Shown one piece after another: positions 15,814 through 64,000 of a stretch of DNA of 64,000 bases (the stretch's first letter is position 1; each line of letters opens with the position of its first letter). The translations under genes and the position numbers were made by a program. The notes below the pieces were generated by a model. It saw nothing but the letters and a program-made list of their open reading frames with translations, ran no database searches and had not been told where the DNA came from. Origin of the DNA: Cenarchaeum symbiosum A (GTDB lineage: Archaea > Thermoproteota > Nitrososphaeria > Nitrososphaerales > Nitrosopumilaceae); NCBI GenBank assembly GCA_000200715.1, contig DP000238.1, positions 804,154 to 868,153 on the forward strand, in the 5' to 3' direction.

Positions 15814-18800
15814 ATGATCCTCTCCGATCAGGCCAAGGGGCGCCTGCGGGCAGGCCTGCGCGCGGCTGGTCCCCTGTTCCTACTTGTGCTGTCCCTGGCC
15901 GCGGCCCCGCATGCAGAGGCCCTGCCGGGTATTCTCTCGGCCACGCTGGATTCAGACGGCGTGCTGCTCACCATTGTATTTGACGATACAGTGGATGCAT
16001 CAGATATAGATCCGTCAAAGATACACGTAAGGGACGGAGGGGCCCTCTCCGGGGGCGCCACATTTGCAGGAGGGCTGCTATCTAGCGCAGAGCCCGACAC
16101 TGTCAGGCTTGCCGTGCCGCATAATGCAAGGGCCATTGTGGCAGGGTACGCATCCCCTACGTTGCACTTTGACGCAGGCGCGCTCGAAAAGGGAGGCGAG
16201 GCATTTCCCCCTGTGTTTGCATTCCCCCGGGATGATGCGGCGCCCTTCTTTGCCCTTGCAGAAGCCACCCCGCAGGGGCTGGCATTCTCGCCTGATGGAA
16301 CACTGATGTTTGCCGTCGGGTCCACCCAGGATACCGTCTTCCGGTATGCATTGGACCCGCCGCACGATGTGGCATCTGCGGTGCTCTCAGGATCATACAG
16401 CGTGCGGTCCGAAGAGAACAACCCGCGCGGGCTTGCCTTCTCGCCGGATGGTACAAGGATGTTCGTCGCCGGGGGCACGGACTTTGTGTACCAGTATTCA
16501 TTGGGGGAGCCTTTTGGTTTTGATCCCGCCCCTGCATTTGACGGCAGCATAGACGTCAGCGCGTCGGATACAGAGGTCTCGGGTTTGGACTTTGGGGACG
16601 GGGGCCTGCGGATGTACATATCGGGCTACCAGAGGGGCAGCATATACCAGTACGACCTGGCAGAACCGTACGAGATAGCCGGGGCTGTTAGCGCCGGAAG
16701 CTATGACGTCGGGGCCGAGGACGGGAGGCCCCGCGGGGTGGTAGTCTCGGAGGACGGCCGCACAATGCTGATTCTCGGGCAGAGCACCACCAGCGTGTAC
16801 CGGTACTATCTCGGGGAAGCATTTGACGTGGAAGCTGCCATGCTAGTAGAGTCCATGCCGGTCGCAGAATCAGAGAACAGCCCGCGCGGGCTTGCGGCAT
16901 CTGGCGACGGCAGGACAGTCTTTGTCACTGGGGCCATCGACGACAGGGTGTACGCGCATGAGCTCGGCGACCCGTACGACCTGTCGGGATCCCTGCATAT
17001 ACCCGGGGGCAACACAGGGGTGCCCGGGGAGTCGTCGCCAAACGGCGTGGTCTTTGCGCCCGACGGGACAGTCATGCTGGTAGTCGGGAGCGGCAGGGAC
17101 CTTGTATACAGGTACGAGCTGCCACACCCGTACGATACGGGCGGCGCCGCGCTCGATAGCGTCTCGAGGACGAGGCCGGCTGCGCGCAGCCCCGAGGGAA
17201 TCGCCTTCTCGAACAACGGCAGCGTCATGCTGATTCTGGACAGGGGCACATCCAGCATATACGGGTACAACCTGGCAGAACCGTATTCACCTGCAAACGA
17301 GACTCACACTTCCGCATTCTCTGTGGCCGCACACGAGGCCACCCCCACGGGGATCGGCCTTGCGTCTGACGGCAGTTCAGTCTTTGTCACGGGCTCTGAT
17401 TCGGACAGCGTGCACAGGTTCGGACTCGGGGGCAACCTAGACCTCGAATCGGCCGTGCATCTATCCTCCTTTGACGCTAGCCCGTACGTGACTGGCCCCA
17501 CGGGAGTCGCAATTTCTGCAGACGGGCACAAATTGTTCATCAGCGAGCGCGTTACAGATAGGGTGCACAGGTTTGAGATGGCCGACCCATACGAGATAGC
17601 CGCCGCCGTATACGTCGATTCACTGGATGCATCCGCACAGGACGACGTACTGCTGGATATTACATTTGCAGCAGACGGCTCGGCTCTCTTTGCGGTAGGC
17701 GGCAGAAACGATATGGTGTACGCCTATGCGCTCGGCTCTGCCTACGACATCACGCCGTCGGCAAAAGTCATATCTGTCGCCTCGTCTGTCACTTCGGGGC
17801 TCGCGCTCTCAGAGAACGGCGCCATCATGGCCCAGGCCGGCGGCAGCACGATAGGCGGCTCTGCGCTCGGAACGCCGTATGCGATACATACCGCCATTCC
17901 CTCAAATATTGTAGCGCCGCCGGGCGAGGACAACCTGAGCGGGGTTGCATTTTCTGACGACGGGAGGTTCATGTATGTGGTGGGAAGGGACCTGCTTACC
18001 GTATACAGGTATACCATGAACCCGCCATTTGACATATCCACGGCCACGTTGAACAGCCAGTCGCTGCCCCTGCCCGGCGGCGTCAACCCGGCAGCTGACG
18101 CGCCTACCGGCCTCGACATATCGGATGACGGCAGATACCTGTACGTCTCAGACGACAACGGCAACATATACCGGTTTGACCTTGGAGGCCCGTACAGGCT
18201 CAACTCCGGCACGTTTAGCTCCGCGTTATACGTGGGGGGAAACATTACTGCACCCCACGGCGTATACGTGGCGCCCGGAGGAAACATCATGATAGTTGCC
18301 GACCGTGATGACGGCAGCATCCACAGGTATGAAATGGCGACCCCGTACGTGCCAGGGGGCGCAACAGACAGGGGCTCGTTTGACATATCGGGAACAGACG
18401 GCGCGCCTGTCGGGGTGGGATTTGCTGGCGGCCAGCACATGTATGTAGCTGGAAATGACACAGGAAAAGTCTACCAGTATCTCGCAGATACGCACCCGAT
18501 ACAGGCGGCAGGTACTGGGCCGCGCCTTCTCTCGGCGGTCCTGGATAACGGAACCCTGAGGGCCACCTTTGATGGAATGATAGACGCGGGGTCGATACAG
18601 GCGGGGATGATCACGATAAGGGACGGCCATGGCTCCAATACGGGGATACCGCTGCTGCTCCCCGAGGGGGCGGCAGATTCCGAGGTCGTCACGTTTGTGG
18701 TCCCCGAGGAATACAGGGCAGAGGCCGCCTCCTACGGGGATCCGTCGCTGCACGTGCCCGCAACTGCGCTGTCAGGGATTGGCGGCGGATCGTTTGTGCC

Positions 18801-21800
18801 TGATTTTACGGGCGGCTCATTGCTGTCCCCGCTGTACCGGCACGAGCGGGAATTCCAGAGCGAGGGAATAACTAGCACGGAGAGATCCGACAGGTATTCC
18901 CTGACCGTTATTCCAGACGGGAGCCAGATGTATGTCGGAGGGGCCGACGGGAACATCACGTGGTACGACCTTGGAACACCCTATGACATAACGACCGGGG
19001 TCCGCGCGGGATCCGACATATTGCCGCCGTACCGGTCCGCGGGCAGAAACGTGGTCCCCTCTATAACCGGGATTGCCTTTTCTGATGACGGCACGCAGCT
19101 GTTTGCCGCAAACAGGGGGGCCCGCATTGCAATGTACCAGATGGATAGCCCGTACGAGATAGAGAGCGCCAGCATAACAGGAACCCTGCTCACAGGGTTC
19201 CAGTCGGGGATTGCATTCTCGGATGACGGCATGCGCATATTTGCCGCGCTGTTCACTGAGAATGCCGTAAGGCAGTACGACCTGGACAGCCCCTACGAGA
19301 TAAGCAGCGGAGTCGATGCGGGCCAGTACGATCTGGACATTCCGCCGTATCCGGGCATATTGTTCCTGCCTACATCGGGCGTGCACTTTTCGCCCGACGG
19401 GGCCATGATGTTCGTCGGCGAGTGGATATCAGATACTGAAGATGCCAACGCGAACAGGGATGTTCATGTAAACAAGTGGCACAGGTATGCGCTATCCACG
19501 CCGTTTGATGTGCTAACTGCAGAGCGCGTCGACACGTATGAATACAACACCGGGCCGGCGGGGGATCTCGAGGACTTTTCCCTGTCCCAGGACGGCCGCA
19601 GGGCGTACACCCTGACCGGCGAGAGGGTGAGCTCAAGCGAGCATATAATCACCCTTGCCCAGTACAGGCTGCCAGAGCCGTTCGATGTGACCCCGCCGTA
19701 CCTTGTGCCGTCATTCAACGTAAGCCAGGGGGGCAACCTGGCTGACCCCTACGGCATGGCGTTTTCGCCCGACGGGACCAGGCTGCTAGTATCAGGGCAC
19801 GGGGAAACAAACACAAAGCTCTTCCACCTGGATCCCCCCTTTGATATAACCTCGGGGATATTCCAGGGCCACAGCCGGTTCTACCCGGAAGGGCTGGCAA
19901 GCGAGACCATACCATCCGGGGTGGCCCTGTCTGCAGACGGCTCGAGAATATTTCTCTCCGACAGGGACCGCGGGGCGGTAAGCCAGTACACGCTTGATGC
20001 GCCATTCGATGTAGAGTTTAACTCAGAGATAAGAATAGACGTGCAGCTTGACGTGAGCGCACAGGATGCGCTTCCCGGAGGGCTTGCATTTACGCCAGAC
20101 GGGACTGGCCTCTTCATGGTGGGTGGCCAGGGCGGCTCTGTGCACATGTACTCCCTGAATACCCCGTTTGATCTTGGCGGGGCGGCACATGAGATATCGT
20201 TTGCCGTGCAGGACAGGGCGTCTGACCCCCTGGGCATCGCATTTGACAGAGACGGGACAGAAATGCTGATAGCCGATACAGGCGGCTTTGTGCACAGGTA
20301 TATCCTTGATGCACCATACGATATATCGGCCCCTGCATACAACGGGTTGTTCGACGCGGGGGGCGGCATCCGGGATGTGGCCGTCGGCGGCGGATCCATG
20401 TTCATACTAGGGGAGACGGACAGGATATACCGGCACAGCCCCGGCACATACCCGGTGGTATCCGCGCTTGACGGCCCGGTGCTGGCCTCTGCCGCTATAG
20501 ATGCACGGGTGGCTGCAGCCGAGGCATTATTTGATAGAGCAGTCGACCTTGGCGGAATAGACCCCGGGGGAATCCGCATAACAGACGGAGCGGCCGCGGG
20601 GGGAGTGGAGATATCCGGCTCTGCAATTTCCGGCGGCAGGGATCCCGGCGTGGTAAGATTTGAGTTATCAGATGTGGATAATGCCACAGTATCCGGATAC
20701 GCCGAGCCCCGGATGATATTTGAGAGATACGCAGTGCCGGGCCTCTCCGGCGGGTCATTTCCGTCGCAGACAGGCAACAGTACAGAGCTGGAAGCTGTGA
20801 TACCGCTCCCGGGATCCGAGACGTCCCTGACTGGTGCGGCATTCTCGGCAGACGGCATGATGGCGTTTGCGGCGGGAAGCTCGACAGGTAGGGTGTTTGC
20901 ATACTCCCTTGGCGGCGCCTTTGATGTGTCGTCGGCGGTGCGCGCCGGCAGCGCGCCCCTGGGCGCGGCCCCCGGAATATCGGGCCTTGCATTCTCTTCT
21001 GACGGGCGGAGCATGCTAGTTGCCGACGAAACCGGCGGGATACGCAGGTATCTTGCAGGCAGCCCGTACGGTATAGGCGATGTGGAGCTGGTAGAATCTG
21101 TCTCGCTGTCCCCCCGTTCAGAAGACCTTGCAGGAATTGCCTTTTCTCACGACGGCATGACCATGCTGGCGGCCGACGGCTCGGGGTCGGTACACAGGTA
21201 TTTGCTGCAATCCCCGTATTCCATATCAGAAGCAGAGTATAGTGAGTCTGCGATAGTAGGCGGGAGCCCCTCGGGAATAGAGTTCTCGTCGGACGGCCTG
21301 CGGATGGTTGTGCCCGATTCAGGCTCGGAGACGGCGCAGGTATATTCCCTTGCTGCGCCGTATACTATAGACGGGGCAGAGCAGATACTGCCGCTGATGC
21401 TCGGGCCCGGGGCCGAAGGAGCCGCGCTATCCGCTGACGGCACGCGGATGCTCGTGCCCGGATCCGGCGTGAGCCAGTATTCGCTCTCCTCTAGAAACCT
21501 GCAGGTCTGCACGGACGTCCTAGAGCTCGATGAAGGCGAGTGTGACGAGGGCATACGGGTCTCAGAGGGAGCGGGCACAGGCGAGGCGGCATCCCTTGCC
21601 ATATCGATAAGCGTGCTCGAGGGGCCCCTCCTGTCGGAGTCGGCGCCATATACAAGGGACGTCTCCGTATCCGGGCGCGACGCCCCACTGCTGGACAGGA
21701 CCCTTGCACTCGGGTTTGGCCTGATGACAACCGACGCGCCTGTCATTCTAGGGCTCGGCAGGGCGGCAGGGTCGATACCCGGGGTAATAGAGGCGCCAGG

Positions 21801-24800
21801 ATATGCAGAGACTGTCATGCGCGCGGTATCCATAACGGCAACAGACGCGCCCCGGGTAGACGAGCCCGAGTTTGTGCCCCTGCCGGATATGTCCAACGGC
21901 ACGGATGCGGCGGGCTTTGGAGAGCCCGTCTTTCTTGCGGTATCTCTTGGCGTGACGGATTCCCCGGGGCTGCGCGAGCTGGACATGCAGGATTCCGGCT
22001 CCGGGACGCCGCGTATGCGCTCTGCAGAGTTCAGGGCGGGGGCGCTCACAATGGAGTTTGACGGCAGGATAAACGCATCGTCTATACAGCCTGATAGGAT
22101 ACACGTCCGGAACGGCCACTCGGCCTCTGGCGGCATACCGTTCTCTTCTGTAAGGGAGGCGGGCCCCCGCACGGCCGTCCTGACAATGGATGCGGCCCCT
22201 GCTCTCGAGGCCCACGGGTATGCGGAACCCATACTCTACCTTGATGCGGGCGCGCTGCAAGGAGAGAACGGCTCGCCCATTCCGCGGCCGTTTGAGCTGC
22301 CGCTGCCAAAGCACATAGAATCATACCCGCTCGTCTCCATAGAGGACAACGTCCGGGGGATGGCATTTGCGCCCGACGGGACCAGGGCGTTTACGTCGGG
22401 CGGCTCGGGCAGGCTTGTCCAGTTCGAGCTGGATCCGCCGTTCTCGCTGGATGCAATACCCGGTTCTGCAAGGTCGTCTGTCATGCCGCCGCCTGCGGCA
22501 GGGCCCGGCGGCGAGACCACCGGCCTGTACGCCCGGGAGAATGACCTTGTCGGGCTGTCGTTTGATACAGGCGGCACAATGCTCTATCTGATGGGCGGCG
22601 ACACGGATACGGTCCGGCAGTACTCGCTGGACAGCCCGTACGATATACGGGGCGGCATTTCATTTGAGGGCCTGTTCTATATCGGCGGCGAGGCGCCAGT
22701 CCCCGGGGGGCTCGAGATGGGCCCCGGCGGGGCAAACATGTACGTTGCCGCTGAAACTGACGCGTCGGTATACAGGTATGCGCTAGCCGAGGCGTTCAAC
22801 GTATCCACCGCGGTCTACACGGGCGATTCGCTGTCTGTTCTGTCCAATGAGACAAGGCCTACCGGCGTGAGGATATCCCACGACGGCCGCAGCCTGTTTG
22901 TAGCCGGGGAGATAGCCCAGAGGGGGCCCGATTCTGTGTTCCGGTATGATCTGTTCCCCCCATTTGATATAACATCGGCTGCATACGCGGGCCGCCTGCC
23001 CAGCGTGGCCGAGGCCACCATGCAGGATCTTGCATTTGCGGACGGCGGCATGCGCCTGTACATTGCAGGGCACCTGACGCGCTCGATACACCACTATGAG
23101 CTTGCCGCCCCGTACGAGCTGGGGCAGCCCGTATCTGCCGTCTTGGATGTAAGATCCGACCAGGGCGTCCCCGAGGGGTCGGCCTTCTCCGGCGACGGGC
23201 GGCATGTATTCGTAATAGGGAGGGCGGGGCCCGACGGGATGATCCACAGGTATCCTCTGGATATTCCATACGACCTGGCATCTGCTGGCGCCTCCGACCG
23301 GCTATTCGAGGCGGCCCCGCGCGAGACCAAGCCGCGGGATATCGAGTTCTCGTCCGACGGCATGATAATGTTTACGATAGGGCACAGCGACAATATAGTA
23401 CGGTTCAACCTCGGCGCCCCATACGACATAGGGCCCGGCACCCCGCCGGTCTTTGGGGGAAGCAGCCCGGTCACATTCGGGGGGAATGCTATAGACATAT
23501 CCGCCCAGATTGCGACGGGGCTGGAGTTTTCCCCGGACGGCACTAGCATGTACGTGACGGCAGACAACCTGATCCTGCAGTATGCGCTGGACACCCCGTA
23601 TGATCCGTCGTCTGCATCCTCCGAAGAATCGTTTGATTTGAGGCTGCGGCCGCTCCCCGACGGGGAATACACGGAACAGCAGCCTGCGGATGTGGCCTTT
23701 TCGCCCGACGGGACCAGGATGTTCGTCTCGGGGAACCGCATAAACGCCGTGCACACATACGCATTGGGGGAGCCGTTTGACGCCACGACCGCCGTCCACG
23801 ACGGGCTGTTCAACCTGGTGGACTTTGATGACGACCCGCGCGGAATAGAGTTCTCTGCCGACGGGCTGTACATGGTAATCACCAATGACAACGCGGGCGG
23901 TGGCAGCGCCAACAATGCACTCGTCCAGTATGCAGTGGGCTCGCGCCCCCTGGAGGCGTCGCAGTGGATTCCGGATTCAGACGCGCCGGGGGCGGCAGAA
24001 ACCGCCGCCCTGCGCTCGTCAGCCCGTGCGGCGGGAGCCCCTGCGCTCGGCGAGGCTGTATCCCTGGGCGTCTCGATTAGCACAGGGGACGCGCCCGCGG
24101 TTGTCGGCATCCCCGGCGTATCTGGCATGCTGATACCTGCCGATGCCCCAGTGCATGCAGATTCTGTCCGCCTGGGCGTCTCGGTCATGCCGGCAGACCG
24201 GCCGGAGGCAGCCGATGCGACAAACATGATACATCTTATGATCTCGTCGGGTGCAGCCGATGTGCCGGGGCATGCGGATGGCGTATCCCTGGGCCTCTCA
24301 TTATCCACAGGGGATGCGCCGGGAATAGCAGAAGATCCGGGAATGCTGATCCGCGGAACGGCAGGTGATGCAATTGATCTGCCGGGGCATTCTGATAGCG
24401 CATCACTGGGCATTTCATTAAACACAGATGATGCGCCGGGAATAGCAGAAGATCCGGGAATGCTGATCCGCGGAACGGCAGGTGATGCAATAGATGCGCC
24501 GGGGCATGCAGACGGGGCATCCCTGGGGCTTGCCCGTGATGTAATAGACGCGCCCGCGGTAAACGACACGTATGCGGTGGGCGGCGGCCCGGCGCAGGGC
24601 CGCGCAATACCTGTAGATGGAACAGACGCGCCGACCGTCGGTGATGTGCCCATGATCATCGTACCGGCGCAGGTCCGCGTGATACCCGTGGATGCGTCGG
24701 ATACGCCGCTGACATCTGATGGGGTCCGCCGGGGGATCTCCATTGCGACAATGGATGTACCGGCAGTAAGCGACGTCCACGAGATACCCGCAGATATAAT

Positions 24801-26496: not shown

Positions 26497-26521
26497 GGAA
26501 CTGGCTCTGCAAAACAAGCCC

Positions 26522-26528
26522 AAATATA
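26522..26528 (+). promoter_or_regulatory. TATA box of the threonine dehydratase gene
   Basis: AAATATA about 25-29 bases before the ATG at 26551, so the gene has its own promoter only ~25 bases after the G1 stop. Confidence 0.6.
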
Positions 26529-26550
26529 CGGCTGCCTGCGGCGGTATATA

Positions 26551-27756
26551 ATGGAGCCATCGTATGAAGAGGTTGAAAGGGCCGCCTCCATGCGCGGGGC
26601 CGAAGTGCGCAAGACTCCCCTTGTGTACTCCCCTACATTTAGCAGGATGACCGGCTCCGAGGTGTACCTAAAATTAGAGCACCGCCAAAAGACCGGCTCC
26701 TTCAAGATAAGGGGGGCGCACTACAAGATAATGACGCTGCCAGATAACGAAAAGAAGAAAGGCGTGGTGGCGGCATCCGCGGGAAACCACGCGCAGGGGG
26801 TCGCATTTGCAGCCTCTGCCGAGGGGATACCCTGTACTATAGTCATGCCAAAGACCGCCTCGCCAGCAAAGGTGGCGGCAACCCGGGGGTACGGCGCTAA
26901 TGTGATACTGGAGGGCTCAAGTTATGAGGAATCATGGAACAAGGCAAGGGAGATTGCCGCCGAGACTGGCGCGTGCATAATACATGCATTTGATGACCCG
27001 CAGGTGATAGCGGCCCAGGGCGTGATAGGCCTGGAGATTCTAGAGGAGCTGCCCGATGTGGACGAGGTTTACATTCCGGTGGGTGGCGGGGGCCTTGCCG
27101 CCGGCGTACTAGTGGCCATAAAGGAAAAGCACCCGGGTGTAAGGGTGGTAGGCGTGCAGTCGAGCAGGTTTCCCGCCATGAAGGAATCGCTGGATAGGGG
27201 CAGCACGGCCCCGTCCGGAGGGGGGACGACCATAGCGGATGGCATATCGGTGAGGAGTCCAGGCGAGCTGACATTTGCTATAATCCGGGAGCTCATAGAC
27301 GAGATAGTCCTCGTCGATGATTCCGAGATAATAGGGGCGATGTTCCTGCTAATGGAGAGGTCAAAGTCGGTGGTGGAGCCTTCCGGGGCGGCCACCCTTG
27401 CGCACATACTGTCAAATCCGCGCCCCGGAAAAAAGGTGGTGGCGGTCCTGGCGGGCGGCAATGTCGATATGTACCTGCTAGGGCAGATAGTGGATAAGGG
27501 CTTGGCCCAGACGGGCAGGCTGCTCAAGGTGTTCATACTGTTGCCGGACAAGCCGGGGGCCCTCAAGGAGGTGGTAGACGAGATAACCTCGGCCAATGCC
27601 AACATAGTCGAGGTGGTCCACGACAGGTTTAGCTCCGAGATAAACGCGGGATCCGCGGGTGTCACCCTCAGCCTTGAGACGCAGGGCGCGGGGGCGGCAG
27701 ACGGCCTTGTGCGCCATCTCCGGGACAGGGGCATAATCTTCAGGCTGGTCACATAG
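26551..27756 (+). CDS. ilvA: Threonine dehydratase, biosynthetic type with ACT domain
   Basis: 401 residues. A PLP-dependent fold-type II enzyme that deaminates L-threonine to 2-oxobutanoate, the first step of isoleucine synthesis. PLP lysine is in KTGSFKIRGA (Lys52); the phosphate-binding glycine loop is VGGGGLAAG (~175-185); SAGNHAQG holds the Asn that contacts the cofactor. The last ~75 residues (LLKVFILLPDKPGALKEV onward) are an ACT domain, usually the site of feedback control by isoleucine or valine. Length fits the one-ACT-domain form. It sits between giant genes G1 and G2 without functional relation to them. A serine/threonine ammonia-lyase of catabolic type is the main alternative. 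Confidence 0.9.
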   Translation: MEPSYEEVERAASMRGAEVRKTPLVYSPTFSRMTGSEVYLKLEHRQKTGSFKIRGAHYKIMTLPDNEKKKGVVAASAGNHAQGVAFAASAEGIPCTIVMPKTASPAKVAATRGYGANVILEGSSYEESWNKAREIAAETGACIIHAFDDPQVIAAQGVIGLEILEELPDVDEVYIPVGGGGLAAGVLVAIKEKHPGVRVVGVQSSRFPAMKESLDRGSTAPSGGGTTIADGISVRSPGELTFAIIRELIDEIVLVDDSEIIGAMFLLMERSKSVVEPSGAATLAHILSNPRPGKKVVAVLAGGNVDMYLLGQIVDKGLAQTGRLLKVFILLPDKPGALKEVVDEITSANANIVEVVHDRFSSEINAGSAGVTLSLETQGAGAADGLVRHLRDRGIIFRLVT

Positions 27757-44305: not shown

Positions 44306-44355
44306 CCGCGGCCCCGCAGGCCGCACCCGGGAGATCCTGCCGCCGGGGATTCACA

Positions 44356-44364: not shown

Positions 44365-44387
44365 ACAAAACACTTTCCCACGGCATA

Positions 44388-50300: not shown

Positions 50301-53300
50301 GGCTTTGCCATGCTGGCGCCCGGGGGCGGGACCATAAACAGGTACGAGCTCGGTACAAGATCCCTTGCGATGTGCCCGGGCGACCCGCTCTGCGGGGATC
50401 TTGCGGCGCGGCACCTGCTGTTTCCGCTAGACGCCCCGGTGCAGTCTGATGCATCCAGTGCGAGGCGCGTGCTGTACGCGGCAGATGCGCCGGCCGCATC
50501 AGAGCAGCTCAAGTCGATCCCCAGCCCGCTCAGGTCGGCCAGCTTACCGCTCTTCTCGGATTCTGCAACGGCAGAGTTCCCGCCGGATCCGCGCATACTT
50601 GCAGTTACACTCGACGGGGACATTCTTGAGGCGACCTTCGACCGGCCGTTTGACACGCAGGGGGAGATAGCCGGCGGCATACACGTAAGAAACGGGATAT
50701 CTTTCTCGGGAGTGGAGATATCCCCGGCAAAGCGGGAGGCATCAATGCCGCATGTGCTGCGCCTCAACATAACCGCCCAGCGCGGCGAGATATCCGGGTA
50801 TTCGAGCCCGCGGTTATACATAGAACCAGGGGTGCTTGCCGTCGGAAGCTCGGTGTTTCCCGACGGGGCAGAGCTGCCCCTGCCGTCTTACAGGGGAGGG
50901 TTTGCCGTTCCAGGGACAGGCCCACCGAATCCATCCTTGCTGGGCGCGTCGATCACGGGGGCCGCGTTCTCGCCTGACGGGCTCCGCATGGCCATAGTTG
51001 ATCACGGCAGGGATGTATTGCAGATGTACCTGCTTGATGCGCCATACGACATATCGAGGGCTATCTCGGCAGGGGAGCTTTTACTCCGGGAGGAGTCGGC
51101 GCAGGCTGCAGCATTCTCGGGCAGCGGGCGGAGCATATTTGTCGCAGGGCATGCAAATATTATCCACCGGTACGACCTTGTTGACCCGGGGAACATATCA
51201 TCGGCCGTGCGCACAGGCGGGTACGCGCTGCAAGGCGAGCTGACAACGGGCCTTTCATTCTCAAGGGGCGGCCTCGAGATGTACTCGGTTGACGCAGGGC
51301 CCGACATTGTATACAGGCATACGCTCGGCATTCCCTATGACATATCGTCGGCCGTTCCGTCGGGCAGCTTTTTCGTGGGGGAAGATGAGACCCAGGACTA
51401 TCCCACCGGCGTGGCAGTATCGCCAGACGGGCTGATCATGCTAGTCTCAGAGTCCCGCACGGGCGGCGTGCGCCAGTACGAACTATCCGTCCCGTACGAC
51501 CCGTCTAGCGCGGGGCCGCCTGAGCTATTCTTGACGGGGCCCGCCCCCGTCCACGGGACAGGCCCCGACGACCAGAGCCCCACCGATGTCACATTTTCTG
51601 TGCACGGCATGCAGATGTATGTGACAGGGCAGCTGACGGGGGCCGTGCACAGGTACGACCTGGCAGAGCCGTTTGATCCCATTGCGTCCACGCATGTAAG
51701 CTCGACTGTCCGGCCCGAGTGGGACGGGATACGCTCCGTCACATTGACGCCCGACGGGACTGTGATGATTACCGCCGACGACCTGGATCCCCCGCTAATG
51801 TACAACCTGGTAGAGCCGTTTGATCCGGACACGGCCGTGCTCTCGGGCAATGCAAGCGGGGCCATACCGGGGCGCACTACGGCAGTGCACCTGGCGCCCG
51901 GGGGAATACTCCTTGCCGGCGGCAGGGACACCCTGTCAAGGTACGATGTGGGCGAGCCGCCGGAGATAGATGCTGCAGTGGAAAACGGCACGCAGGGAAT
52001 AATCACATTCGAGCCGTTCCCAGGGGCTCTCAACCCCACATCTGACGGGGGGAGCATATTCGTATCAGGCGAGTTTAACAACGATGTCAGGGAGATTGTG
52101 CTCGGGGCCCCGTACGATATCACGCAGCCGTTTGGGCACGGCCGGGTCTTTATGCCGGAAGACGACGGCCTGGAGGGCCCGGTAGTGGAGGCCTTTGCGC
52201 CAGGCGGGCGGCACATGTTTGCAAGCGCGGCAGAAGGCATAATCCTGTACTCGCTTCCGGGGCCGTACAGCGTGGGCCTGGCAGAGCTTGAGGGGTCCTT
52301 CAGGGGGGCGGGCCACTGGATGCTAAAGCCGGGCGTGACGTTTGCATCCAACGGCTCGGTAATGCTGGCATCGGATTCGCTCAACTCTACAATACACCGG
52401 TTTGCGGCGGGAACACACCATGTGCAGGTGTGCGAAGGCGGCACGAGCGGGGTCCGCGGCATGTGCATTCCATTCCACGGGATAACCGCGCGCGACGGGC
52501 CGGTACTGGGCGACAACTCCACCGCCCCCATTGTAGAGAGGACCCGGTTCCTGTATCCAAATGACACGCTCGGAGTATTCGATGAGGGTGAAAGATTCAC
52601 GGGCATGATGCTCAACGCGTCGGGAAAAGACGCGCCGGCAGTGGCCGACGGGGGCCTCCGGGCCCTGACTGCATCCATATCCGAAGGAGATTCCCCGTCG
52701 TTTGAGGATACATCGGGTGCGGATACCACGGGGAAGATAGGCGAGGCGGATGCGCCGGCAGTGGGCGAGGATTACACCCTGGCCCGGACGGCATCCATAT
52801 CCGAAGGAGATTCCCCGTCATTTGAGGATGTATCGGGCACGGATACCACGGGGAAGATAGGCGAGACGGATGCGCCGGCAGTGGACGAGGATTACACCCT
52901 GGCCCGGACGGCATCCATATCCGAAGGAGATTCCCCGTCGTTTGAGGATGTATCGGGCACGGATACCACGGGGAAGATAGACGAGACGGATGCGCCGGCG
53001 GTGGACGAGGATCACATGCTGGTCCGGATTATTTCCATATCCAAAAACGATATCCTGACGTTTGAGGAGAGGGACGGCGTGGATGGCATGGCGAGCCGCA
53101 ATCCAGTGGACAGGCCGGCCGTGTCTGATCCGGTCAGGCTGGAGGTACTGTACTTCCTGTCGGGAGACGACTCACCGGCGGTTCTAGACGTGCCCCGCGT
53201 GAACAGCAGCATCGGGGACGTGTCCGGCGGGGGCCGTGAAGGCAATGATACGCTGGCCGCGTCTGATCATGCCAGCCTCGGCGTCTCCCGGATGGCATCC

Positions 53301-55388: not shown

Positions 55389-55420
55389 GGGGCGGAGACC
55401 CGGGGATACAAATCCCAAAG

Positions 55421-55429
55421 CTAAAAAGG
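55421..55429 (+). promoter_or_regulatory. TATA-like box of giant gene G5
   Basis: CTAAAAAGG, 23-31 bases before the ATG at 55452 and ~33 bases after the G4 stop. G5 therefore probably has its own promoter rather than sharing the G4 transcript. Confidence 0.5.
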
Positions 55430-55451
55430 CCTGCAGAGGGGGCAATCACAA

Positions 55452-58400
55452 ATGCGAAACATGCCTGCAGGGGCGCTGCTGGCTGCCGCGCCGGCCATTG
55501 CGCTGCTGATCCTGCTTCCGGCGGCCCATGCGGCATCCGTCACATCTGCGGTCCTGGACCTGCGGGGCGGCGCGCTCGAGATCGCCTTTGACACGGATAT
55601 AGATATCTCAGAGGTGGTTCCGGACAGGTTCCACCTGAGGGACGGCCTCTCATCTAGGGGAATAACGCTCTCTGCATCCGAGTTCTCGACGTTCTCCGAT
55701 ACCGACGTGATCCGCTTCAACCTCAGCCCGCTGAACAGGGTGGCGCTGACGGGGCAGCTTGCGCCCCACCTGCACTTTGACTCCGGCGCGCTATCCGATG
55801 TAGACGGGGTGGAGTTTCCCGTCCCGTTTGCGCTCCCCCCGGCGCTCTCTTTTGACCGGTACAATGTCAACCTGCCGGTCGGGCAGGTCTACACCCGGGA
55901 TGTGGACTTTTCCCCCGATGGAACCATAATGCTGGTGCTAGTTGTTCCGGCCACCAGCACCGAATCTGTGCGGATGTACGCGCTATCCGAGCCGTTCGAC
56001 GTGACGACTGCCGTCCTATCCGACACGCTTGAGATGACGAATGTGGTCAGCGGGGCGACGGAGCTCCTCATGACGCCCGACGGCCTGAACATGTACCTGA
56101 GCACATCCCCAAGCTCCAATGTGCACCACTATACACTGGAGGAGCCCTTCAATGTTACCGGCGCGGCCCGCGCGGGCCAGTTCAGGATAAACGAGCCCAT
56201 AATCACCGGCATGGCATTCTCAGGGAACGGCTCGTATGCATTCGTATTAAGCAGGCTCACAGACGAGGTGACCCGGTGGGCGCTATCCACACCCTTTGAC
56301 CTGTCGAGCCGCGCGGCAGACGGGGAGATACTTGATGTGGACGGCCCCGGCGAGCACGGCTGGGGCCTGTACGTGACGTCCGACGGCCGCAAGGTCTTTG
56401 TCGGCGGCGAGGACGCAGACAGGGTGCACAGCTACGAGCTGGGCAGCCCGCACGATTTGGGGACCGGGGTATACACGGGATCCATCGCAATACCCGGGAT
56501 GAACGATATCACCGGGATAGAGTTTACGCCCGGCGGCGGCAGGGTCATAGTCGTGGGGGAGACAGGCCGAAGAGTCGTCTCGCAGGAGCTGCACGTCCCG
56601 TACGGCGCCTCGCTGCGCACAAACTTCCTGGACACGCTCTCCGTCGAGGAGAACCCCGAGGACTTTGAGTTTGTCCTGGACGGCAGGAGGATGTTCCTCG
56701 TCGGCTTTGATCTGGACAGGGTGCGCAGGTACAACCTCGGCACCGCGTATGATATCGGCTCGGCCCAGCCAACCAATGCATTCAACGCAAGGAACGAAGA
56801 GGACAACCCGCGCGGGCTGGCAATCTCCGACGACGGGCAGAGCTTCTTTGTGATAGGCAACGAGAGGAGGACGGTGCAGGAGTACACGGTCGGAAGCCCC
56901 TTTGTGCTGGTCAACACCCTGGTCGGCAGCAGCTATCCCACGGGCCTTAGCACGGCAGAAGACGTCGAGTTCTCGCCCGACGGCACCTCCATGTTCGTCG
57001 CCTCAGAAGACATCATACATTCATTCAGCCTCGGCACGGCATTTGACGAGACCACGGCCAGCGCGGGCGCGCAGGCGAACCTTTCTGCGCAGGAGACGGG
57101 CCTGACCGGGGTCACATTCTCGGCCGACGGCACAAAGATGGCCGTTACCGGGTCCTCGTCGAGATCCATCCATTCGTACGATCTGGGCTCGCCGTTTGCC
57201 GCAAGTACGGCGGCCCACACGGGATCCATGTCGGTCCGCACCGACGGCATCCCGACGGGGCTGGGCTTTGCGCCCGGCGGCCTTGTTGCATATGTTACAA
57301 TCAGGGACCCGGGGGCCATGATCGAGTACACGCTAAACACGCAGTTCGTTGCAATCTGCGCAGACGACATGACTGTATCTGGCGGAGAATGCGTGGAGAT
57401 AGAGAGGACCGAGTACGCCCGGCTCGGGTCGGCGGTGCTCAACGGGACGGAGCTCCGCCTGTACTTTGACGCCCCGGTGGCCTTTGCAGGGATGGGGATC
57501 CGCGTAACGGACGGCCCCCTGCCGGAAGGAGGGGTGGAGCTTGCTGCATCCGAGCTGGCAACAGGCAGCGCCAGTATCTTGAGTTTTGAGCTTTCAGGGC
57601 CCCGGGCATCAGAGATAGCAGGATATGCAGATCCCAGGATTCACACAGACCCGGGCGCCATCTCGGGAACCGGGGGCGAGGTGTTCCCCGAGCCATACGG
57701 GCTGGGCACTACAGGGTATAGGGGGATGTCCGGATACCTGGGGGCGCTAGATACGTCCGCCCAGAGCGCCGCTCCGATGGGTGCCGCCATGGCAGAAGAC
57801 GGCTCAGGCGTGCTGGTCCTTGGCGGCACCACCCTGTTCAGGTACAGGCTGGATGCGGCCTTTGATGTTGATAGCGCGGTCCACATATCGACCCGCCAGA
57901 TAGGCGGCAGGGAGGGATCCCCGACGGGCCTGGCAGTCTCCCCGGACGGCGCCATCATCATGGTGTCGGGCGCCGGCGGGATACACACGTATTCTGCCGA
58001 CAACGCCTTTGGCGCCGGCGGCATCTCGTATCTTCGGACATTTGACGTGGGGGACAACGTGCAAGAGCCCCTCGGCGTTGCGCTCTCCGCCGCGGGCGAC
58101 AGGCTTTTCGTCTCGGACGGGGCGGCAGGGGCGGTAAATGCATACGACCTGCTAGCCCCGTACAATACCAACGGGGCCCAGTATGCGGGCTCGTTTAGCA
58201 CTGCAGTCCAGGACGGCGACCCGTCTGGGATATCCATATCCCCCGACGGGCTGCGCGTGCTAGTCGCCGGCGGCGAGAGCGGCCGCATACACGAGTACGA
58301 ACTGCTGGCGCCGCTCCTGGCGCCGGGGGCGGCGCATACCGGGTCATTTGCCGTCGAGGGGCCACCGTCGGATATATCGCTTGATTCTGTCGGCCTGCGC

Positions 58401-61400
58401 ATGCTGTCGACAGGCGGCGGCACAGTCCACCATTATTCGCTGAATGTGCACCCTGTACATGTGGTCCAAGAGTCCCCCCGGGTCGTATCTGCATCGCTGG
58501 ACCTGCCGTCAGACACGCTCGAGATTGCCTTTGACCGCGGGATAGCAGGGATAGATCCGTCGGGGATATACCTGGCTGATGCCCCGGGGCACACCGGCGG
58601 CACCAGCCTCGGGGCCGCCTCCGTCGTGATAAATGGCACCGTGGCAAGGCTGGAACTGGCCGAGGGCACGGCGGCGCTGTACCAGGATCCCGTGCTGCGC
58701 TTTGAACAGGGCGCCCTGCCAGGCCCGGGCGGCGTATTCCCCGAGCCGGCAGGCGAGATCCCCCCCGTGTACAGGGAACTGCACGGCCTGGCAGATAACA
58801 CACCCACGGGCCTTGCCTTTTCAGGCAACGGCATGAGGATGTTTGTTTCGGGCAGCAGCACAGATACCATCAGGCAGTACGACCTGCTCTCGCCCTACCT
58901 GCCTGCAGGGGCAGAAGAATCCGGGACATTTTCCGTGGCGGCGCAAGAGTCCGGCCCCACGGGAGTTGCATTCTCTGAGAGCGGCCGGAGGATGTTCGTT
59001 CCGGGGAGCGGCGCGGACGTGCATGAATACTATCTGGCATCACAGTTCAACATCACAGGGGCCCGGCACCTGGGCAGCTATCCGACTGGCGCGGCAGAGC
59101 CGGTACGAAACATGCTGTTCTCTGATGGCGGCACAAAGATGTTCATCGTCGGGAGCCCCGGCATGATAACAGGGTATAACCTTGACGGGCCCTACCGCGC
59201 ATCATCCGCGGTACAGGCGGATATCCTCGATGTGAGTGCACAAGACGCGGCAGTTACGGGTGCGGCATTCTCGCCTGACGGCATGCTGCTGTTTGTATCC
59301 GGGAGGGACGAAGATTCCATACACAGGTACTCGCTTGTGGCGCCGTTTGCACTGGCAGGGGCCTCCCACGACGAGACGCTATACCTGGGGGCAGAAGAGG
59401 GGACTCCCACGGGAGTAGTGCTCGCGCCCGGCGGGCTGGGACTGCTGGTTACTGGAAACGATGCGAACGCCGTGCACAGGTACGAGCTTGCAGAGCCCTA
59501 CAGCCTCTCCCCTGCCGGCGGAACCTCGGACTTTGACGTGAGCGCCGACGAGGGCACGCCCACGGGGGCAGAGTTCTCGCCCGACGGCACGACAATGCTA
59601 ATAGTGGGAAGCGACGCAGATGCAGTAGTCGCATATTCCCTGGCAGAGCCGTTTGACGTATCGTCTGCCAGCAAGGACCGCTCGTTCATAATAGGGGGCT
59701 CCCCGTCGGGACTCGCGCTATCGCCAGACGGAACAGGGATGGTTGTCTCCGGGGGGTCCGGCGACATACGCAGGTACAGCCTTGGCGCGCCGTTTGAGCT
59801 CGGCGATGTCAGCGAAACAGGCTCGTTCTCGGTATCTGAGCAGGAATCCGCGCCTTCTGCGGTGGAGTTTGCGGCCGATGGAAGGGGGATACTTGTCGCC
59901 GGCGGGTCCGGCAACATACACAGGTACGACCTTGACTCGGTGTTTGAGCTTGTATCCCCGGCGTACGCAGGCTCGTTCTCGGTGGCTGCGCAAGAGTCGA
60001 GCCCCACGGGAATCGCCCTCTCGCCCGACGGCGCGACAATGCTGATCACGGGGACGGGCAGCGGCTTGGTGCATGCGTACTCGCTGGCATCCCCCAATGA
60101 TCCTGCGACTGCATCGTACAAATGGAGCAGGGGGGCGGGCACGGAGAGCAGGCCGCAGGACGTGGACCTCTCGTCTGACGGCCTGTCCATGTATCTGGTG
60201 GGCGACAGGGATGATACAGTCGTACAGTATGTCCCGTCGCTGTTCTACGCGGCATCCTGCACTGCAGAGCAGGAGCTCTCATCGGGGATATGCTATACAG
60301 AGGTGCTCTCATTTGAGCAGCACCCGGCAGACGCGCCCCGGGCCCCCGATAGCGCCACCTATTCTGTGTCATTGCACACAATGGACACGCCGCTGGCGTC
60401 TGATTTTGACATAACCAGTTACCCGTTTGTGCGCGGAGGCGATTCACCGGGACACTCCGAGGGCGCCGTGATCACGTCCGATGTGGCCACCCGGGTCGTC
60501 TCGGCCGTTCTAAACCGGGGCACAGGGGCGCTCGACGTAACCTTTGATGCAGGCGCCGCCCTGCAGCCGGCGGCCGGGGCGGCCGCCCATATAGTGGACG
60601 GCGCGGGGCCCGGCGGCATCCTGCTAGGCGATGCCAATGTGACCGGCGGGGTGTACCGGTTTATCATAGACTCGCCCGATGTGGGACTGATTGCAAGGTA
60701 TGCGGATCCCAGGCTGCACTTTGGGGCAGGCTACCTGCCGGCCCACGGCGGCGAGACGTTCCCGCCCGTCTTTGCACTGCCCTTGCAGGTGCCCTCTGAC
60801 AGCTGGATGGAATTAGATCAAAAACCATACGGGCTGCACTTTTCGCCGGACGGAATGATCATGTTCACGGCTGATTCGGCTGCCGACGCGATAAAGCGGT
60901 ACAACCTCGGTACTCCATACGACATAACATCGGCCGTTCTTAACGAGACCCTCGGAACGGTGCCGCAGACAGCCCCCCAGGGGGTCACACTCTCCGAAGA
61001 CGGCAGGGTCATGTTTGTATCGGGCGCAATCCCAAACGAGATCCGCCGGTATACGCTGGCAACACCGTTCGTGCTAAATTCATCCTCCCTGAACGGGTCG
61101 ATTGCGATAGAGGGCACGCGCCCCGTCGGGATAGATCTTTCTCCCGGCGGCACTCGCCTGTACATGGCGGGGAGCACCACCCACCAGATAAGGCAGTACG
61201 ACCTTGATCCCCCGTACAGCATAACTGCCACGCCAACAGGCGGGGAGATCTATGTTCCCGAGGGCACCATCAGCCCCTCGGCCATCAACCCGCAGGGCGT
61301 TACAGTCTCGCCCGACGGCCGCTTTATGATAATTGCCGCGCTAGATGACGTCCTGTACAGGTACTATCTGACAGAGCCCTTTGATGTTACATCCGCCGTA

Positions 61401-64000
61401 GCGGCAGGCACGCTGGACACGTCGCAGGTGCGGGATCGCGTGCGGGACGTGGGGGTATCAGAAGACGGCCGCATGATCTTTGTTGCAGATGAAGACGATG
61501 GGGTGGACAGGTACGACCTCGGTGCACCTTATGATATTGCGGCACATCCGTACGTGCCGGGGCTCGACTTGGACGTATCAACGGAGGACGGCCAGGCCCT
61601 GGCGCTTGCATTCTCGTCTGACGGGACAAGCCTGTTCGTCCTGGGGGACGGGGGCAACATGCTGCATGAATATATCCTGGGTTCCCCGTATGCCGTGCAC
61701 ACGGCCGTGATCGGCTCGTCGCACCCGATAACGGACGCCGTGGGGCGGCTCTCGGGGCTTGCGTTTTCGGATGACGGTTCAAGGTACTATCTGTCCGTGC
61801 AGGGCGGCGGCGCTGTTCACCAGTTTGACATGTCAGTCCCGTTTGATCCCGCGACGTCAACATATGCGGGGTTTGCAGACCTGTCCGGGCAGGGGGTCTC
61901 GCCGACCGAGGTCAACATAGAGAACGGCGGCAGGATGATGTTCGCGCTTGATCGCAGCCCGCAAACAGTCCGCGCATACACCCTCGGGACCCCGTATGAC
62001 GTGCAAGATATATCGCCCTCGGCGAGCCTGGACGTGTCAGCCTACTCTACGGCGTCCACTGGTATGGCCTTTTCAGAAGACGGGCGCAGGATATTCGTCA
62101 TAGACGGCGGAAACTCCACCGTGCACAGGTTTGACATGGCAGCCCCGTTTGATCTCTCAGGCGCGGCATATGTGGATTCACTCGACATTACATCGGCCGG
62201 CGGCAGGACCCACGATGTGGCGTTTTCTGCAGGCGGCCGCCTGATGTTCGTTCCCGGGATAGACGACGATGCAGTGTACACGTTTGCGCTCTCCGCGCCG
62301 TACGATATAACGCCGTCCCTTTACGTGTATAACGCGGACGTCGACGGCGGGGCGGCAGACGGGGCGCGGGGCCTGGCCGTCGGCGAAAACGGCAGCGCCG
62401 TGGCGGCGGCATATAACACGGGGGAAGTGTACTGGCGCGGGCTCGCAGAACCGCACAACCTTGCAACGGCGGGCCCCGCGGCACTTGCGCCCATAGGAGG
62501 CGGGTCGCCCGCGGGCCTGGCGCTCTCTGGCGGCGGGGAAAGGATGTTTCTTGCCGATAGCAACGGGACCGTGGTACAGTACGACCTGGACGGCTCATAC
62601 CCCCCCGGCGGCAGCGTCTCTGCGGTGCTGGAGGCAGGCCAGGGGGGGAGCATCTGCGGCATTGCCTTCCAGGCGGGCGGCACGCAGATGATGGTGGCCG
62701 GCGGCGGCAGCATATACCGATACCTGCTGGGGACGGCGTATGACATATCCACGGCAGGAGCCCCGTTCCGGCACCAGCTGGGCCCGGGCGTGGTCCCCTG
62801 CGGGATGGCGCCGTCTGCTGACGGCACAGGGATCGTCATATCCTTGCAGGACGGAAGCGTGCACAGGTATGCGCTTGGCGAGCCGTTTAACCCGGGCAGC
62901 AGGCAGGCGGGCCCCGAGGGATTCAACACAAGGGGGATAGAGGCAAGAGACGTGGAGTTTTCGGCCGACGGAACCATAATGTATCTGCTCGACGGCGGCG
63001 GATCCGCGCACAGGTATCCTGCAGTTTCATATTCGATAGAGATACCCAGGGGGGCAGCATTGCCGGTGGAGGCGCGCGACGGGCCGGGCATCGATGAGAT
63101 GCCCTCGTTGAGGCCGAATTTCACGCGGGCCGACGACAAGCCGGCGGTCTCTGACCGCGCCGTGGCAGCCGTCCCCATTGCCAGCAGGGTGGTCTCTGCA
63201 GTGTTTAACGAGGATACGGGAGTGCTTGACGTGGCGTTTGACGCGACAAGCTCCCTTATGCCCTCTGGGTCGGCCTACATCGGGGACGGCGCGGCATCCG
63301 GCGGCATCCCGCTGGAAGGCGGCAGGAACACGGGCCCCCGGGAGATCCAGTATGAAATAGGCGAGAAAGACAGGGAGATAGTCATACAGTACGCCGATCC
63401 CAGGCTGCACTTTGATGCAGGCTACCTGCTATCTGACGACGGCGGATCCTTCCCGCCCGTATTTTCACTCCCGCCGCCTGTGCCGGCGGCGTTCATGCCG
63501 CATAAAGGGATCCCGCAGGATGCATTTCTCACGCCCGGCGGCAGGATGCTCTTTGTCGCGGATTCGCAAAACAACACGATATACAGGTACATGCTGGATA
63601 GCCCGTTTGATGTAGCCTCCGGGGTGCAGGACCAGTCACTTGATGTATCTGGCAGGGATTCTGGGCTTAGCGGCATGGACTTTTCTGGCGACGGCACAAG
63701 GTTGTTCATTACGGGCACCCAGAACAGCCAGGTGCACCGGTTTGCGCTCGAGGCGCCGTACTCGCTGGAGGGGAGCCCGGCAGTCGACAGCACCTTCCAG
63801 TCGGGGCTGGGCGGCCCCGCCGACGTGCATTTCGGGGAGGGCGGCATGCGGATGTACATTACAATAGACGCGCTAGACCGCATATTCGGGTACCGGCTGG
63901 CTGCACCGTACGAGATAGGCGCGCCTCCGGAGATTGCGGGCGCAGTCGGCGTCGGCGCCCAGGACAACCGGCCCGGCGGCATTGCACTCTCGCAGGACGG
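55452..64000 (+). CDS. Giant secreted surface protein G5, 3' end outside the window: 10-5-10-15 blades and more
   Basis: Open for 2849 codons from the ATG at 55452 to the window edge without a stop; the last codons (IALSQDG) still read as a propeller blade, so the frame is intact. Signal peptide 1-27 (MRNMPAGALLAAAPAIALLI then LLPAAHA). SWM/cadherin-like domains start near 55530, 57418, 58480, 60490 and 63185. Blade runs after the first four count as 10, 5, 10 and 15; the fifth is cut in its fourth blade. C-x8-G-x-C knuckles follow runs 1 and 3 (Cys codons at 57357 and 60258). Two short D-x-P segments (60310-60470 and 63050-63170) lie inside, unlike the terminal stalks of G1 and G4. A C-terminal anchor is expected beyond the edge. 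Confidence 0.87.
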   Translation, partial: MRNMPAGALLAAAPAIALLILLPAAHAASVTSAVLDLRGGALEIAFDTDIDISEVVPDRFHLRDGLSSRGITLSASEFSTFSDTDVIRFNLSPLNRVALTGQLAPHLHFDSGALSDVDGVEFPVPFALPPALSFDRYNVNLPVGQVYTRDVDFSPDGTIMLVLVVPATSTESVRMYALSEPFDVTTAVLSDTLEMTNVVSGATELLMTPDGLNMYLSTSPSSNVHHYTLEEPFNVTGAARAGQFRINEPIITGMAFSGNGSYAFVLSRLTDEVTRWALSTPFDLSSRAADGEILDVDGPGEHGWGLYVTSDGRKVFVGGEDADRVHSYELGSPHDLGTGVYTGSIAIPGMNDITGIEFTPGGGRVIVVGETGRRVVSQELHVPYGASLRTNFLDTLSVEENPEDFEFVLDGRRMFLVGFDLDRVRRYNLGTAYDIGSAQPTNAFNARNEEDNPRGLAISDDGQSFFVIGNERRTVQEYTVGSPFVLVNTLVGSSYPTGLSTAEDVEFSPDGTSMFVASEDIIHSFSLGTAFDETTASAGAQANLSAQETGLTGVTFSADGTKMAVTGSSSRSIHSYDLGSPFAASTAAHTGSMSVRTDGIPTGLGFAPGGLVAYVTIRDPGAMIEYTLNTQFVAICADDMTVSGGECVEIERTEYARLGSAVLNGTELRLYFDAPVAFAGMGIRVTDGPLPEGGVELAASELATGSASILSFELSGPRASEIAGYADPRIHTDPGAISGTGGEVFPEPYGLGTTGYRGMSGYLGALDTSAQSAAPMGAAMAEDGSGVLVLGGTTLFRYRLDAAFDVDSAVHISTRQIGGREGSPTGLAVSPDGAIIMVSGAGGIHTYSADNAFGAGGISYLRTFDVGDNVQEPLGVALSAAGDRLFVSDGAAGAVNAYDLLAPYNTNGAQYAGSFSTAVQDGDPSGISISPDGLRVLVAGGESGRIHEYELLAPLLAPGAAHTGSFAVEGPPSDISLDSVGLRMLSTGGGTVHHYSLNVHPVHVVQESPRVVSASLDLPSDTLEIAFDRGIAGIDPSGIYLADAPGHTGGTSLGAASVVINGTVARLELAEGTAALYQDPVLRFEQGALPGPGGVFPEPAGEIPPVYRELHGLADNTPTGLAFSGNGMRMFVSGSSTDTIRQYDLLSPYLPAGAEESGTFSVAAQESGPTGVAFSESGRRMFVPGSGADVHEYYLASQFNITGARHLGSYPTGAAEPVRNMLFSDGGTKMFIVGSPGMITGYNLDGPYRASSAVQADILDVSAQDAAVTGAAFSPDGMLLFVSGRDEDSIHRYSLVAPFALAGASHDETLYLGAEEGTPTGVVLAPGGLGLLVTGNDANAVHRYELAEPYSLSPAGGTSDFDVSADEGTPTGAEFSPDGTTMLIVGSDADAVVAYSLAEPFDVSSASKDRSFIIGGSPSGLALSPDGTGMVVSGGSGDIRRYSLGAPFELGDVSETGSFSVSEQESAPSAVEFAADGRGILVAGGSGNIHRYDLDSVFELVSPAYAGSFSVAAQESSPTGIALSPDGATMLITGTGSGLVHAYSLASPNDPATASYKWSRGAGTESRPQDVDLSSDGLSMYLVGDRDDTVVQYVPSLFYAASCTAEQELSSGICYTEVLSFEQHPADAPRAPDSATYSVSLHTMDTPLASDFDITSYPFVRGGDSPGHSEGAVITSDVATRVVSAVLNRGTGALDVTFDAGAALQPAAGAAAHIVDGAGPGGILLGDANVTGGVYRFIIDSPDVGLIARYADPRLHFGAGYLPAHGGETFPPVFALPLQVPSDSWMELDQKPYGLHFSPDGMIMFTADSAADAIKRYNLGTPYDITSAVLNETLGTVPQTAPQGVTLSEDGRVMFVSGAIPNEIRRYTLATPFVLNSSSLNGSIAIEGTRPVGIDLSPGGTRLYMAGSTTHQIRQYDLDPPYSITATPTGGEIYVPEGTISPSAINPQGVTVSPDGRFMIIAALDDVLYRYYLTEPFDVTSAVAAGTLDTSQVRDRVRDVGVSEDGRMIFVADEDDGVDRYDLGAPYDIAAHPYVPGLDLDVSTEDGQALALAFSSDGTSLFVLGDGGNMLHEYILGSPYAVHTAVIGSSHPITDAVGRLSGLAFSDDGSRYYLSVQGGGAVHQFDMSVPFDPATSTYAGFADLSGQGVSPTEVNIENGGRMMFALDRSPQTVRAYTLGTPYDVQDISPSASLDVSAYSTASTGMAFSEDGRRIFVIDGGNSTVHRFDMAAPFDLSGAAYVDSLDITSAGGRTHDVAFSAGGRLMFVPGIDDDAVYTFALSAPYDITPSLYVYNADVDGGAADGARGLAVGENGSAVAAAYNTGEVYWRGLAEPHNLATAGPAALAPIGGGSPAGLALSGGGERMFLADSNGTVVQYDLDGSYPPGGSVSAVLEAGQGGSICGIAFQAGGTQMMVAGGGSIYRYLLGTAYDISTAGAPFRHQLGPGVVPCGMAPSADGTGIVISLQDGSVHRYALGEPFNPGSRQAGPEGFNTRGIEARDVEFSADGTIMYLLDGGGSAHRYPAVSYSIEIPRGAALPVEARDGPGIDEMPSLRPNFTRADDKPAVSDRAVAAVPIASRVVSAVFNEDTGVLDVAFDATSSLMPSGSAYIGDGAASGGIPLEGGRNTGPREIQYEIGEKDREIVIQYADPRLHFDAGYLLSDDGGSFPPVFSLPPPVPAAFMPHKGIPQDAFLTPGGRMLFVADSQNNTIYRYMLDSPFDVASGVQDQSLDVSGRDSGLSGMDFSGDGTRLFITGTQNSQVHRFALEAPYSLEGSPAVDSTFQSGLGGPADVHFGEGGMRMYITIDALDRIFGYRLAAPYEIGAPPEIAGAVGVGAQDNRPGGIALSQD

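Follow-up and report, generated by a model that had tools for sequence, protein, structure and literature searches.

Giant proteins of Cenarchaeum symbiosum A interpreted as tandem arrays of five-bladed beta-propellers

The giant proteins encoded in a 64,000-nucleotide stretch of the genome of the archaeon Cenarchaeum symbiosum A (the whole stretch is called the window below) are almost certainly made of five-bladed rings in tandem. This reading, which had been put forward in an earlier note on the same DNA, is strongly supported by blade counts in multiples of five across species and phages, by the strand pattern of velcro closure, by duplications of whole rings and by relatives with a single ring, while the evidence from structure prediction is indirect. 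Ring architecture together with growth of the genes ring by ring is very likely.

Results

The genome is one contig of 2,045,086 b, and the window covers its bases 804154-868153. The blade motif occurs in five giant ORFs of the window, all on the plus strand (Table 1). A blade HMM of 51 positions was built from the window proteins, and blades were counted in two ways, as HMMER domains and by wrap-around Viterbi segmentation. The earlier note had counted 19 complete runs with 175 blades in total, each run holding only 5, 10 or 15 blades, and the independent profile recount over all five proteins gave the same figures: every one of the 19 runs is divisible by five, and one further 15-blade run is cut by the window end. 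The automatic Viterbi count was the same in 16 of the 19 runs, and in each of the other three, one blade that is degenerate or carries an insertion was recovered by HMMER or by eye; these are a 10-run of P0001, read as 3+6 where an insertion interrupts one blade, and the final 10-run of P0001 and the first 10-run of P0006, each read as 9. The blade length did not hold, since the mean blade has about 51 residues and not about 47 as noted earlier. Outside the window, protein 5 continues with runs of 15-10-10-5. Among the other genes of the window, the ORF at 2402-3595 combines an MIT domain with an AAA ATPase that has Vps4 features, as in an archaeal CdvC-like cell-division protein, and the ORFs at 4070-5338 and 7767-9116 both have N6/N4 DNA methylase domain matches and are possibly modification genes.

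Table 1. The five giant ORFs checked, their blade runs by HMM recount (ring numbers as predicted), the enzyme genes between them and the frame breaks of giant propeller genes; coordinates are window positions unless marked as genome positions
Feature	Coordinates	Strand	Blade runs and remarks
Giant protein 1 (3563 aa, ORF 15805-26496)	15814..26496	+	15-10-5-10
Protein 1, 15-blade run (3 rings)	16276..18495	+	
Protein 1, 10-blade run (2 rings)	18898..20439	+	insertion in one blade; all 10 by HMMER, 3+6 by Viterbi
Protein 1, 5-blade run (1 ring)	20833..21495	+	
Protein 1, 10-blade run (2 rings)	22357..23940	+	final blade weak
PLP enzyme with ACT domain (threonine dehydratase-like)	26551..27756	+	housekeeping, outside the propeller system
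Giant protein 2 (2527 aa)	27950..35533	+	15-10-5
Protein 2, 15-blade run (3 rings)	28397..30679	+	AlphaFold2 query 28283-30709
Protein 2, 10-blade run	31094..32644	+	
Protein 2, 5-blade run	33026..33712	+	
Protein 2, C-terminal module	34781..35530	+	
Giant protein 3 (2429 aa)	35821..43110	+	15-5-5 at 36298-38667, 39121-39900, 40300-41025
PurK-like ATP-grasp enzyme	43169..44305	+	housekeeping, outside the propeller system
Giant protein 4 (3666 aa)	44388..55388	+	10-10-5-5-10
Protein 4, runs in order	44835-46322, 46740-48278, 48681-49325, 49692-50369, 50958-52421	+	
Giant protein 5 (5246 aa)	55452..64000, on to 71192 (past window end)	+	10-5-10-15 in the window
Protein 5, 5-run, spacer and 10-run	57654..60287	+	878-aa AlphaFold2 query
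Protein 5, 15-blade run (3 rings)	60831..63026	+	
Protein 5, start of next 15-blade run	63519..64000	+	cut by the window end
Frame break (L001)	~71030-71192		just past the window
Frame breaks, other genes	genome 768747-768945, 683563-683605, 533073-533127		

Genome-wide, 31 ORFs carry blades, and together they amount to 100,699 residues, which corresponds to about 302 kb or about 15% of the genome; the largest of them have 12,016, 10,048, 7,622 and 6,886 aa. The genome count was made on stretches with profile matches, and all listed profile matches lie inside these stretches. The raw segmentation yielded 124 runs, 110 of which are divisible by five (59 runs of 10, 25 of 5, 24 of 15, one of 20 and one of 25), and all 14 off-multiples were resolved on reading as miscounts or as a split ORF. 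Two counts of 3+6, two of 9 and one of 4+5, in which a diverged blade separates the parts, come from missed or insertion-split blades. The counts of 11 and 16 contain false first blades that lie inside the spacer domain, in one 10-run a frame break puts 3 blades on one ORF and 7 on another, and spurious singletons and pairs of low score make up the rest. The corrected total is 117 runs (66 of 10, 24 of 5, 25 of 15, one of 20 and one of 25), or about 1,200 blades and about 240 rings. These 117 runs share descent and are not 117 independent draws; because the runs of this genome are mutually related, independent support was taken from relatives in other genomes and in phages.

The ORF of 12,016 aa (genome 768747-804794, L031-L033), which ends just inside the window start, has 175 blades, or 35 rings, in the run order (15,15,10)x4,10,5, so that a super-repeat of 40 blades (8 rings) occurs four times. 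The complete 15-run of protein 5 in the window shares 56-63% identity with the four repeated segments of this ORF. The 12,016-aa ORF lacks a signal peptide of its own, while the ORF upstream of it (20 blades) has a signal and lacks the canonical C-terminus, and the intact protein may be larger than the 12,016-aa ORF. In four giant propeller genes, a frame break divides the coding sequence between two overlapping ORFs (Table 1). There are no long homopolymers at the four breaks (one CCCCC), and phase-variable repeats were rejected as their cause; the breaks may be assembly errors or real.

The runs have the form D-(ABCD)n-1-ABC, which is the sequence pattern of a ring closed by velcro topology. 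Scored over 110 runs, the D strand is missing from the last blade, with a mean score there of 1.4-1.6 as compared with about 15 in inner blades of the 10- and 15-runs. The first blade is preceded by a D-like strand (p 1.4e-11 in comparison with shuffled sequence), and the last blade is not followed by one (p 0.39). The duplicated unit has the same limits. In the ORF at 586362-591242, blades 1-4 equal blades 6-9 and blades 11-14 equal blades 16-19, and the copied block reaches from the D strand before blade 1 to strand C of blade 5. Both of these recent duplications comprise one D-(ABCD)4-ABC unit, the one with 690 nt identical and the second with 1 mismatch in about 753 nt, and a close paralogue of this ORF (83% aa identity) has 15 blades, not 20. 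The unit of recent duplication is one ring, not one blade. Moreover, an older ring duplication is visible within the 25-run, where the lag-5 identity is 42-57%, and in the 10-runs the similarity between blades is higher at lag 5 than at neighbouring lags (p 6e-4). Loop length and D-strand score were also considered as marks of the ring junctions; the D-strand score is lower at the junctions (p 5e-4), yet blade class 2 scores just as low, and these marks were dropped as proof.

For structure prediction, AlphaFold2 gave a pLDDT of 74.7 for the 15-run of protein 2 and 75.3 for the 5-run, spacer and 10-run of protein 5, with a pTM of only 0.42-0.47. In Foldseek, the latter model (5+10) matched the 403-aa protein of phage ICBM2 at 2.5 A in 254 aligned columns; this phage protein has a single 5-run. 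A 231-aa fragment from Cellulophaga phage Mariner was matched at a TM of 0.77. Tandem 7-bladed proteins of the PDB superposed badly in the best Foldseek lists (TM <=0.33, rmsd ~20 A or more), and apart from this poor fit the PDB matches were uninformative on the ring number. The lowest confidence within the 10-run of protein 5 falls on the junction of blades 5 and 6. Low pLDDT was found at the junctions 5/6 and 10/11, but also at one long internal loop (2/3), and the junction dips are a suggestive sign of ring borders in the models. The earlier note had named closed five-fold rings in predicted structures as support for its reading: the fit to the phage model with a single 5-run is consistent with such closure, which is predicted here from confidence values and superpositions.

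As to the blade family, the sequence profile of the blades places them in the YVTN/WD-like superfamily. When a profile of 16 five-blade units was searched against PDB sequences, the best match was the YVTN propeller of the archaeal S-layer protein 1l0q (E 7.5e-19), followed by lactonase and WD40-like proteins. Tachylectin-2, which the earlier note had taken as a model, is not among the best 60 PDB matches of this profile, and with 1l0q in first place homology to tachylectin-2 is not supported. A single-sequence search for solved relatives returned chance matches only. Pfam and NCBIfam gave scattered matches to 6- and 7-blade families and no family that fits the five-blade unit; the best Pfam matches of the giants are SGL (PF08450) and Lactonase (PF10282), spread over the repeats. 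Judged by the sequence matches, the unit belongs among the YVTN/WD-like propellers, as a member with five blades, and not among the tachylectins.

Relatives with a single five-blade unit were found in Cenarchaeum sp. SB0675, Robiginitomaculum, Cytophagales, Hydrogenedentota and several archaea of the same family, as well as in Lentibacter phage ICBM2 (gp51), an uncultured phage and Synechococcus phage S-SKS1, and an isolated five-blade protein is encoded by an ORF of 281 aa (L076). The unit occurs as 5, 5 in Pelagibacteraceae, as 5-5-5 and more in MEX2-MAG13, as 5, 5, 5 separated by linkers in Roseobacter phages CRP-2 and CRP-9, and as 5, 5, 5 with linkers between or as 15 in IMG/VR phages. 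Incomplete sets are three blades at a contig end (L055) and one MEX2 run in which 4 of 5 blades were detected. The exception is a MAG protein with a signal peptide (L084, G110 contig C101, 1387-2292) that has only four near-identical blades, which either departs from the rule of five or results from the collapse of a repeat in a draft genome. In addition, genome G013 has more distant propellers with shorter repeats, outside the rule of five, which probably belong to another family. In Cenarchaeum sp. SB0675 the single five-blade ring (L050) lies amid many WDVSSVTxMxxMF repeats (BspA-like). A ring of the window shares 24-32% identity with the phage units (tblastn E 2e-22 to 6e-11). The phage relatives are tail proteins, as indicated by PHROG 38058 'tail fiber' (E 4.6e-30) and by the adjoining tape-measure gene, and the ICBM2 relative sits among tail genes. 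Three IMG/VR phage contigs (L070 438-3959, L071 and L075) have a continuous 15-run whose blades align one by one with those of the archaeal 15-runs; an exchange of 15-blade runs between viruses and archaea is possible. The five-blade family is absent from the same-genus genome G001, so the expansion is lineage-specific.

Most giants have a hydrophobic signal-like N-terminus ending in AxA. Protein 1 combines a signal-like N-terminus, spacer domains, DxP repeats, poly-Gly and the C-terminal module. The spacer of about 100 aa (e.g. 30785-31099), earlier called 'SWM-like', has no Pfam match at E 0.1. The C-terminal module of the giants consists of poly-Gly, a domain of about 150 aa, a Pro/Glu-rich stretch and a tail like GILDxIxxFFRSLFGL (FFRSLFGL in protein 2). 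Within this genome it was matched 34 times, while 60 related genomes gave no match and Pfam no family, and it is also present on ORFs with few or no blades (e.g. 1532797-1534737 and 567260-573526). Its distribution is consistent with a possible lineage-specific surface anchor or sorting signal, and we infer that the giants would be exported and share anchoring or sorting by this module. The dN/dS of 0.31-0.33 in two paralogue pairs reflects purifying selection, a sign that these proteins are in use; diversifying selection between the close paralogues is not indicated by these values.

Discussion

We propose that the giants would be chains of closed five-bladed beta-propeller rings made of a YVTN/WD-like blade, each ring with the form D-(ABCD)x4-ABC, in which one N-terminal strand would complete the fifth blade. 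In runs of 10, 15, 20 and 25 blades, ring would follow ring without a linker beyond the normal C-D loop, so that compact rods would be formed, with the spacer domains of about 100 aa between the rods. The genes would grow and shrink by gain or loss of whole rings, since, as proposed, only multiples of five fold. The strand pattern alone could also be read in another way, namely that five-bladed rings are limited to the 5-runs and that each 10- or 15-run closes as a single ring of all its blades, because a long run begins with just one D strand and has a truncated blade only at its end, and the spacing at the ring junctions is that of internal blades. We consider this very improbable, however, as there are runs of 20 and 25 blades while the solved propellers have four to twelve (PMC6805158), the recent duplications insert one complete 5-ring, linkers separate the same units in the phage relatives, a 5-blade phage protein fits the 5+10 model at 2.5 A, and in the AlphaFold2 model the confidence within the 10-run falls at the junction of blades 5 and 6.

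Even less probable, in our judgement, is an open superhelix or solenoid in which the multiples of five are the memory of an ancestral five-blade block. The runs do have a common ancestry, and copying of blocks of five would by itself keep the multiples of five, but the velcro strand, which a solenoid does not need, is kept in every lineage including phages and bacteria, and isolated five-blade proteins exist, such as that of 281 aa. Moreover, the amplification of single blades, which is common in propellers (PMC9218822), would have broken the rule across so wide a divergence unless selected against. The chance that the counts are an artefact of assembly or counting is practically negligible: repeats are prone to assembly errors and four giant genes are frame-broken, but the genome is one complete contig, the same unit recurs in independent genomes and cultured phages, the two counting methods agree and the coding frame is under purifying selection.

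What the rings are for is less certain. The secreted and probably cell-surface-anchored giants would act as multivalent adhesins on surfaces of a host or matrix, and each ring would offer a face or groove to a glycan or protein ligand, like its phage tail-fibre relatives. On the analogy with these relatives, the giants are probably many-armed (multivalent) attachment molecules; for adhesion or recognition as such, which is suggested because of the tail-fibre relatives and the signal-like N-termini, we put the chances at about even. The archaeon is probably sponge-associated, and C. symbiosum A is a symbiont of the sponge Axinella mexicana (PMC7848895). Glycan binding on the host, the idea of the earlier note, would be a reasonable guess, made more plausible by the phage tail-fibre relatives and by the precedent of phage phi11 (PMC4901313). 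The main rival is that the same rings form a structural envelope or S-layer-like layer, or a matrix for the capture of ammonium or nutrients, which is possible but rather unlikely. For an envelope speak the closest solved sequence relative, which is the propeller of the archaeal S-layer protein 1l0q, and the share of about 15% of the genome with about 240 rings, which suggests a bulk structural product; in addition, the S-layer proteins, which are expanded in sponge archaea, have been proposed to serve in charge concentration and adhesion (PMC6790972). However, the strong divergence of the paralogues (~30% blade identity) and the tail-fibre relatives point to recognition and not to a uniform lattice, and the absence of the family from the same-genus genome speaks against a general envelope requirement.

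In sponge thaumarchaea, NHL, WD40-like and LVIVD repeats and expanded S-layer proteins have been noted (PMC7848895, PMC6790972), and in a search of the sponge-thaumarchaea literature apart from the original genome publication we found no description of five-bladed arrays. Taken as a whole, it is an even bet that this is an undescribed five-bladed family, present in thaumarchaea and some marine bacteria as well as in the tail fibres of marine phages, which in one symbiont has been expanded to about 240 rings by whole-ring growth, resulting in a variable multivalent host-recognition surface that was possibly exchanged with phages. Propellers are thought to arise by the amplification of single blades (PMC9218822, PMC6805158). 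The approximately 1,200 blades form a large natural data set in which the length of the runs changes by one closed ring at a time and some duplications are nearly identical in DNA, and thus a test bed for ring closure as a constraint on the evolution of repeat proteins. Furthermore, the five-blade unit has no fitting Pfam model and also occurs in phage attachment proteins, and it is a candidate means of host attachment for an uncultured thaumarchaeon.

Comparison with known systems

The protein 1l0q resembles the giants in being an archaeal surface protein with a YVTN-type blade. It has a seven-bladed propeller joined to PKD domains, whereas the giants have contiguous units of five, a different spacer and a C-terminal module, and do not show a seven-blade pattern. 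Tachylectin-2 is a five-bladed GlcNAc lectin and is like the giants in its five blades of similar length. Among enzyme families, Lactonase (PF10282) is seven-bladed and SGL (PF08450) six-bladed, as against the five-blade unit here. The tandem YWTD propellers of LRP/megalin, which are six-bladed and have EGF spacers, also place several propellers in one giant surface protein; they appear in the Foldseek lists, with a poor superposition on the models of the giants (rmsd ~24-28 A).

The receptor-binding protein Gp45 of phage phi11 has a five-bladed propeller with a putative GlcNAc cavity, and its blade 5 is composed of the N-terminal strand and three C-terminal strands (PMC4901313). It is like the giants in having five blades and a velcro pattern with an N-terminal strand, but it is trimeric with one propeller per chain and closest in structure to glutamine cyclotransferase (PMC4901313); a sequence link between it and the giants was not found. 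In Apilactobacillus kunkeei, the consecutive giant surface-protein genes Giant1-5 encode proteins of 3,000-8,000 aa and take up 6% of the genome (PMC12863079). That organism is likewise a symbiont; unlike C. symbiosum it is a bacterium, and the part of the source available to us describes no propeller arrays (PMC12863079). The marine phage tail proteins (ICBM2 gp51, CRP-2, CRP-9 and IMG/VR L066) differ from the giants in that their rings are mostly separated by linkers, with one or three units per protein, and lack the spacer domains and the archaeal C-terminal module, while in the unit itself and in its velcro pattern they are like the giants.
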